The position numbers and the translations under genes are program-made. From positions 1 to 35,296 of the forward strand of contig CACYXE010000019.1 of the NCBI GenBank assembly GCA_902778275.1: a stretch of 35,296 nt of DNA, given 5' to 3'. Below, piece after piece: positions 2,884 through 4,543 of this stretch (position 1 is the stretch's first letter; each line of letters opens with the position of its first letter). Origin of the DNA: Oscillospiraceae bacterium (lineage in GTDB: Bacteria; Bacillota; Clostridia; Oscillospirales; Oscillospiraceae). The notes under the pieces are model-generated. The model did not search any database and was not told the DNA's origin. It saw nothing but the letters and a program-made list of their open reading frames with translations.

Positions 2884-3624
2884 ATGGATATCGTCCGAAA
2901 ACACAGCAAGAAGCGGGACGCTATTCTCGGCTACCTGCGCGAGTGCAGCGATCACCCCAGCGCAGATCAGGTTTTCCGCGGTCTCAAGCCGCTGCACCCC
3001 GAGCTCAGTCTGGGGACGGTATACCGCAATCTCGGGATCCTTGCGCAGGACGGACTGATCTCTTCCGTGGGACCCGTCAATGGGCAGGAGCGCTACGAAG
3101 CCCGGACCGATCCCCATCCACATTTTGTGTGCCGGCGCTGCGGCCGGCTGTTCGATCTGGATCTCCCGGATCTGATCAAAGAACTCTACAGCGAGATCGA
3201 AAGCGCCATGGGCTGCGTCCCGGAGGGCTGCGCCCTCACGATCACCGGGCTCTGCCCGGACTGCGCGAAGGGCGAGACAGAGGCGCCGGACCCGGACGCT
3301 GCGGTACAGCAGACGCCCGCCGTGAAGAAATGGCTCTGCTCGGTCTGCGGGCATGTGCATATAGGCAGCGCACCCCCGGTGCTTTGCCCCGTCTGCAAGG
3401 TGACGTCTTCCCATTTCCGAGACGCCGCCGAGGCCGTCCAGGAGGGCGCATCTCCTGTGCTTTTCCCCGAGGACATCGATGAAAAGAAGCTCCGCCAGCG
3501 TCCCGCCCGGAAGACCCGCAAATGGGTATGCTCCGTCTGCGGCTGCGTCCACGAGGGGCCCAATCCTCCGGAGCTCTGCCCCGTCTGCAAGGTCCCGGCC
3601 TCCAACTTCAGGGCCGCGGACTGA
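2884..3624 (+). CDS. PerR/Fur-family regulator fused to two rubredoxin-like domains
   Basis: A 246-aa protein. Residues 1-130 are a Fur-family repressor: a winged helix ('SLGTVYRNLGIL', 42-53), a metal-binding dimerisation domain, and structural-zinc cysteines C83/C86 and C124/C127. By spacing, the B. subtilis PerR regulatory ligands H37, D85, H91, H93 and D104 correspond to H24, E72, H78, H80 and D91, so one Asp is replaced by Glu. Residues 149-178 and 213-242 are two copies of the rubredoxin-like module seen at the C-terminus of rubrerythrins (WxCxxCGxVHxG..PPxxCPxCK). Each has four Cys able to hold one iron or zinc. Ordinary PerR is about 145 aa and lacks these modules. Start ATG 2884 has GGAGGT 5 nt upstream. 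A redox- or peroxide-sensing role is inferred. Confidence 0.9.
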   Translation: MDIVRKHSKKRDAILGYLRECSDHPSADQVFRGLKPLHPELSLGTVYRNLGILAQDGLISSVGPVNGQERYEARTDPHPHFVCRRCGRLFDLDLPDLIKELYSEIESAMGCVPEGCALTITGLCPDCAKGETEAPDPDAAVQQTPAVKKWLCSVCGHVHIGSAPPVLCPVCKVTSSHFRDAAEAVQEGASPVLFPEDIDEKKLRQRPARKTRKWVCSVCGCVHEGPNPPELCPVCKVPASNFRAAD

Positions 3625-4209: not shown

Positions 4210-4275
4210 GGAGGCGGGCCGCCAAAAAGAGGCTTCCGAAAGAAAGCCTCTTTTTGGTGCGGGTATGGGGATTTG
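4206..4275 (-). repeat. Repeat copy A: tRNA-Leu 3' end plus terminator-like hairpin
   Basis: This stretch closely parallels 4411-4479. Positions 4251-4275 are identical to the last bases of tRNA-Leu(UAG), including the encoded CCA. A hairpin (13-bp stem, 4223-4235/4244-4256) stands where the tRNA-Leu terminator stands in copy B. Positions 4206-4227 match 4411-4432 except for possible edge bases. The rest of the tRNA is missing. It is either a scar of an integration event at the tRNA 3' end or a partly deleted tandem tRNA copy. Confidence 0.8.
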
Positions 4276-4410: not shown

Positions 4411-4479
4411 CGCCGGAGGCGGGCCGCCAAAAAAAGCTTCCTTTCGGAAGCCTTTTTTTGGTGCGGGTATGGGGATTTG
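4411..4479 (-). repeat. Repeat copy B: 3' end of the intact tRNA-Leu and its terminator
   Basis: Partner of 4206-4275, offset by about 204 bp. Both outer segments are the same (GC-rich flank and tRNA 3' end), while the stem of the hairpin between them differs. Identical flanks with divergent stems suggest a recurring tRNA-terminator cassette, not a very recent exact duplication. Confidence 0.75.
4429..4459 (-). terminator. Terminator of tRNA-Leu
   Basis: An A/T-flanked hairpin pairs GCTTCC with GGAAGC around TTTC. In the direction of transcription (leftward) it is followed by a run of seven T, directly after the encoded CCA of tRNA-Leu. Confidence 0.8.
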
Positions 4480-4543
4480 AACCCCAACGCCTCTCGGCAC
4501 AAGAACCTAAATCTTGCATGTCTGCCAATTTCATCATACCCGC
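4459..4543 (-). tRNA. tRNA-Leu(UAG)
   Basis: 85 nt including an encoded CCA. The acceptor stem GCGGGTA/TACCCGC and discriminator A are visible. The anticodon loop is TTTAGGT, giving anticodon UAG, on a CAAGA/TCTTG stem. A long class-II variable arm (TGCCGAGAGGCG) and a T arm with GTTCAAAT complete the cloverleaf. It decodes CUN leucine codons. It is the downstream member of a Gly-Leu tRNA pair. Confidence 0.95.

Follow-up and report, generated by a model that had tools for sequence, protein, structure and literature searches.

A predicted PerR-type repressor joined in one reading frame to two rubredoxin-like modules in an Oscillospiraceae bacterium

The window analyzed here comprises 35,296 nucleotides of contig CACYXE010000019.1, from the draft assembly GCA_902778275.1 of an Oscillospiraceae bacterium. 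On its forward strand, the open frame call at 2884-3624 gives a gene for a protein of 246 aa (plus stop), in which a Fur-family domain (2899-3240) is followed by a linker (3271-3330) and by two complete rubrerythrin-type rubredoxin (RBDX) modules, delimited by module identity comparison at 3331-3417 and 3523-3609. The initial annotation had described a Fur part running unbroken into two four-Cys rubredoxin-like modules, and this is what the frame contains, with both Pfam domains above their cut-offs: residues 6-119 match FUR with 77.3 bits (cut-off 23.1) and RUBY_RBDX matches two stretches of the protein with 83.3 bits (cut-off 26.5). The extent of the Fur-family domain was taken from Pfam together with an alignment to the metal-ligand and structural zinc positions of PerR. 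When compared with structure chains, the best solved relatives of the protein were the peroxide regulators 2fe3 and 4i7h, presumably PerR of B. subtilis and S. pyogenes respectively, and module 2 matched rubrerythrin chains.

The composition of the frame and the reading of its linker bear on whether this is one gene. The Fur part has a GC3 of 0.77, the linker (residues 130-147) 0.83, the two modules 0.74 and 0.89, and the second linker 0.77; the upstream stretch 2700-2883 has an overall GC of 0.32. The sole inner start-like codon of the linker is a GTG at 3322, which no ribosome-binding site precedes. This place reads GTGAAGAAATGG, and its counterpart in a five-module RBDX array on another contig of the same genome (C13, see below) starts ATGAAGAAATGG, behind AAGAGGAGGATACTACA. 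The presence of GTGAAGAAATGG without the ribosome site found at C13 suggests an old start codon now lying inside a continuous frame. The stretch 2884-3624 is confirmed as a true single-frame fusion, and everything reported here about it comes from one draft genome that is 84% complete.

The gene is preceded, on the same strand, by a promoter-like pair TTTACA-17-TAAATT with TG before the second hexamer (2814-2842), a consensus match only that scored 9/12 in the scan. Eleven bases past it starts a predicted Fur/PerR-type box at 2854-2868, TGAGAATTGTTCTCA, a site already noted by the initial annotation and found again both in the sequence and in the assembly scan; six of its seven pairs are symmetric. 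A ribosome-binding site, GGAGG (2873-2877), stands before the ATG at 2884.

The genome itself is a draft of 2.38 Mb in 59 contigs, presumably assembled from a metagenome, with completeness of 84.44 and contamination of 0.55. Two Fur-family matches were found in it, the fusion and a remnant on contig C13, and only in the fusion is the domain intact. The fusion may be the sole working copy of this Fur-type switch in the cell, with the proviso that another intact Fur or PerR could sit in the missing part of the assembly. C13 carries, in order, a box, the truncated perR, an RBDX gene of five modules that has an AGGAGG and an ATG of its own, and reverse rubrerythrin (revRbr). The perR remnant (L122:3208-3432) still has its DNA-binding half and final CxxC, but the middle, 68 aa by fusion numbering, is gone in frame, so that the sensor/dimer part is absent; there is no ATG at the expected start, and two box-like sites lie upstream. 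Between this remnant and the reverse rubrerythrin, a stand-alone frame of 296 aa (L122:3432-4319) holds five tandem RBDX modules with a period of 195 bases or 65 aa. Its module 2 shares 99% of its DNA with module 3 and 93% with module 4, and modules 2-4 look like recent copies. The revRbr of this set matches Pfam RBDX and Rubrerythrin (PF02915). Composition was also tried as a way to tell whether the contig is foreign. The window correlates at 0.935 with the C13 stretch, and six other stretches of its own genome give values between -0.12 and 0.89; the test was abandoned as non-discriminating, a stretch from a different genome of the genus giving the same 0.935.

The box connects the two loci. 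In the assembly, exact TRAGAATNRTTCTYA, a pattern composed from these two boxes themselves, occurs only before the fusion gene and before the C13 set. Allowing one mismatch adds the second C13 box, at which point the reversed control gives equal numbers. A looser box pattern has 14 matches, against 4 for its control, in 10 places; seven of these are off the two loci, and of the four inspected two fall within reading frames and two between frames. The C13 form, TAAGAATTATTCTTA, also precedes perR in two loci of the same genus (L005 and L168). In C. acetobutylicum, according to one study, the reverse rubrerythrin genes are repressed by PerR. The C. difficile enzymes of this type act on peroxide and O2 in vitro, reducing both at the expense of NADH through E. 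coli partner proteins, and no such PerR box was found upstream of the C. difficile revRbr genes (PMC7482061).

Among the 129 distinct Fur frames in the fetched loci, the fusion alone carries RBDX or a tail of more than 45 aa; it is longer than the family norm. In protein searches, a fusion whose tail matches poorly might appear by its Fur part alone, and further regions were therefore fetched; RBDX was found on none of their 43 Fur frames (40 rows hand-picked, mostly for long reported frames, and 3 others; at least 3 of the 43 repeat earlier genes). Protein searches of 60 relatives' genomes, and of 391, 394, 398 and 400 genomes at the class, order, phylum and family levels, gave no other stop-free join of both parts among the matches listed; the sets are overlapping samples that each include the own genome, and all except that of the 60 relatives used strict E-value cut-offs. 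Except for the fusion, every listed match that starts in the Fur part and reaches beyond about residue 150 crosses a stop. A single scan of an 84,980-species collection, run on six peptide patterns that distant fusions could escape, returned at least 591 stretches, at least 504 of them related, and the best 80 led to 79 loci with no fusion. In viral contigs, two stretches fitted a pattern and neither was related. Within the genus (102 genomes, own included), Fur-family matches occur in 41 genomes and the two-module tail, among the matches listed, in the own genome only. G010 has, at the beginning of a contig, a 65-aa piece that holds a single module and a linker resembling that of the fusion; looking for a Fur part in that genome at E values up to 10 gave none. 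The search for C-terminal rubredoxin-like domains on Fur proteins that the initial annotation had proposed yielded no second fusion in the sets examined, and no title or abstract found by our literature searches describes a Fur-RBDX fusion, which the initial annotation had called perhaps undescribed.

A way to approach the origin of the gene is to look at how its parts are arranged in relatives. In the loci fetched from relatives perR stands on its own as a gene, and in most of them an RBDX gene comes after it, typically a reverse rubrerythrin (RBDX first) that often follows directly. An RBDX pattern lies within 700 bases after 108 of 128 Fur frames, a share inflated by the choice of part of the loci by RBDX motif. 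In locus L195 (genome G541), perR is followed by two single-module RBDX mini-genes and then by an RBDX frame joined to a FAD-binding domain, and RBDX genes beside perR are therefore not confined to the own genome. These mini-genes and the five-module gene of C13 share with the fusion both the modules and the neighbor, and differ in being separate genes. In the Fur tree, built on 123 columns only, the fusion domain sits on a long branch (0.73) in a supported set of 21 rows (96/87), the other 20 being separate Fur proteins of the same genus, which speaks for the fusion belonging to this genus as well. The most likely origin, and the simplest account of these sequences, is a duplication with fusion in one copy. 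The perR-RBDX-revRbr set would have been duplicated; in one copy, perR and a small two-module RBDX gene would have merged into a single frame, and in the other (C13) the sensor/dimer domain of perR would have been lost and the neighboring RBDX gene would have expanded to five modules.

The Fur part was compared residue by residue with PerR. The ligands His37, Asp85, His91, His93 and Asp104 align with His24, Glu72, His78, His80 and Asp91 of the fusion, four of the five regulatory ligands being thus kept, and the structural zinc positions are Cys83/86/124/127 (CxxC...CxxC), the last two just beyond the Pfam FUR match. Neither NCBIfam PerR equivalog cut-off was reached (83 bits against 200 and 76.1 bits against 180). 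The protein shares with PerR (2fe3, 4i7h) the Fur domain, the structural zinc cysteines, the four ligands including Asp104 and the type of box; it differs in the two C-terminal RBDX modules, in Glu at Asp85 and in Arg at Asn61, the latter being usual among its relatives. The alignment upholds the initial placing of Glu72 opposite Asp85 of PerR from B. subtilis. The accompanying suggestion, that a Glu at the peroxide-reactive Asp85 may change peroxide sensing, needs a correction. In the literature, five metal ligands are named for PerR, with His37 and His91 as the oxidized residues (PMC10294975), and Asp104 is pivotal to peroxide sensitivity (PMC8638851). Because the counterparts of His37, His91 and Asp104 are all kept, Glu72 need not abolish peroxide sensing, as judged from the alignment. 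A literature search for PerR D85E gave nothing relevant.

The modules have their cysteines at C152/155/168/171 and C216/219/232/235, and Cys221 is an additional one. Both modules fit C-x2-C-x12-C-x2-C and pass the Pfam cut-off of rubrerythrin-type RBDX (PF21349); the RCKP-type rubredoxin-like model (NF045720) gave 20.7 bits against a curated cut-off of 45. The N-terminal domain of reverse rubrerythrin is an RBDX module with the same Cys spacing. This enzyme also has a ferritin-like diiron domain, of which the Pfam search found no match in the fusion protein, and the latter is accordingly not classed as a rubrerythrin. At the amino-acid level, the closest match of module 1 is C13 module 1 (87%). 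For module 2 it is the G010 tail (87%), followed by C13 module 5 and the C13 revRbr module (80% each). At the DNA level, module 1 is equally near C13 module 5 (79%) and C13 module 1 (78%). Pairing the fusion with C13 module by module is therefore weak, given that the DNA of module 1 resembles two C13 modules and the protein of module 2 resembles both C13 module 5 and the revRbr module.

Taken together, these sequences lead us to favor, as the probable though far from certain reading, a Fur-family repressor of the PerR type that has gained, by fusion, a rubredoxin-like electron carrier of two modules, with the origin given above and the following mode of action. With Fe2+ or Mn2+, the dimer would bind the TRAGAATNRTTCTYA boxes at its own gene and at the C13 revRbr set and repress both. 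Peroxide would oxidize the metal site, the repressor would come off, and the rubrerythrin peroxidase and the poly-RBDX protein would be made. The two modules would form Fe(Cys)4 centers folded independently of the Fur part and would keep their older role of handing electrons on toward rubrerythrin, though now attached to the regulator. The electron carriers of the presumed target pathway would in this way be covalently joined to the sensor, in a genome where the ordinary perR is truncated. Weighing against this reading are its restriction to one incomplete draft genome, Glu72 at the Asp85 position, the weak module pairing, the possible drift of the modules, a box pattern no more frequent than its reversed control once one mismatch is allowed, and the C. 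difficile revRbr genes with no PerR box before them.

The strongest competitor, a minority possibility in our judgment and still a serious one, is that the modules are passive: a near-neutral gene fusion with a normal Fur part and a tail without special role. That the fusion is known from a single genome agrees with this, as do unusual substitutions in both modules. Of 142 distinct modules, 114 carry one and 116 the other of two Glu residues that module 1 lacks, and 126 have a Tyr that is replaced by Cys in module 2; for this reason the modules may be drifting. Against it, all eight module cysteines are kept, as are one Gly and two Pro found in every one of the 142 distinct modules (Cys spacing and the last Phe belonged to the search pattern that gathered them), despite dS of 0.5-1 from the C13 modules. 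Specifically, module 1 against C13 module 1 has dN 0.13 and dS 1.05, and module 2 against C13 module 5 has dN 0.13 and dS 0.51, a purifying signal that cannot be dated to the time after the fusion. If the tail is idle, the gene would be a natural case of two genes of an oxidative-stress set merging.

It is unlikely, in turn, that the protein is now a Fur-like iron sensor and no longer a peroxide sensor. Glu at the Asp85 position is found also in the Fur chain 6d57, which we take to come from C. jejuni. The box has TGA...TCA ends, and Arg48 occupies the place of Asn61, where PerR has its Asn, the Asn61/Arg61 pair being the PerR/Fur box switch according to one study (PMC8638851). In this group, however, most Fur domains have Arg there (121 of 128), and Arg48 was dropped as a Fur-like mark on that account; Asp104, the published pivot, is kept, and the box shared with the fusion gene leads to a rubrerythrin gene.

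Redox coupling of DNA binding through the predicted Fe(Cys)4 modules is possible. A specific version of it, in which the modules now do the sensing, we consider rather doubtful, a little more so than the iron sensor. The repressor of this presumed anaerobe would read the electron state of the rubredoxin/rubrerythrin chain by swapping electrons with it, a relay from peroxidase to regulator that would set the regulatory iron, with Asp85 to Glu retuning, and lowering, the direct reaction with peroxide. The modules are akin to the first domain of revRbr, which is encoded in the presumed target set. The Asp85 column has Asp in 122 of the 128 aligned Fur domains and Glu in six. The other five with Glu, presumably Zur, all carry His at the Asp104 position, so that the pairing of Glu with Asp104 is unique to the only fused domain; one sequence cannot, on the other hand, demonstrate a correlated change. 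If the tail matters, there would be a simple test of whether electron flow, beyond metal and peroxide, can set a Fur-family repressor.

The two remaining explanations survive less well. That the modules are zinc-binding structural ribbons adding protein or DNA contacts is very improbable: zinc-ribbon matches of the fusion stay below the Pfam cut-offs and the C13 array does exceed those of Zn_ribbon_11 and zf-UBP, yet in both proteins the rubrerythrin rubredoxin domain matches far better. An assembly or sequence error joining two genes, conceivable in a draft assembly with related repeats elsewhere in the genome, is hardly credible given that neither the modules nor the linker are C13 copies and that the linker has a coding-like GC3.

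Elsewhere in the window, the end of a tRNA-Leu gene (4459-4543, reverse strand) and the adjoining hairpin-like stretch are repeated 204 bases apart, at 4225-4275 and 4429-4479, a repeat that resembles an old duplication or integration scar.
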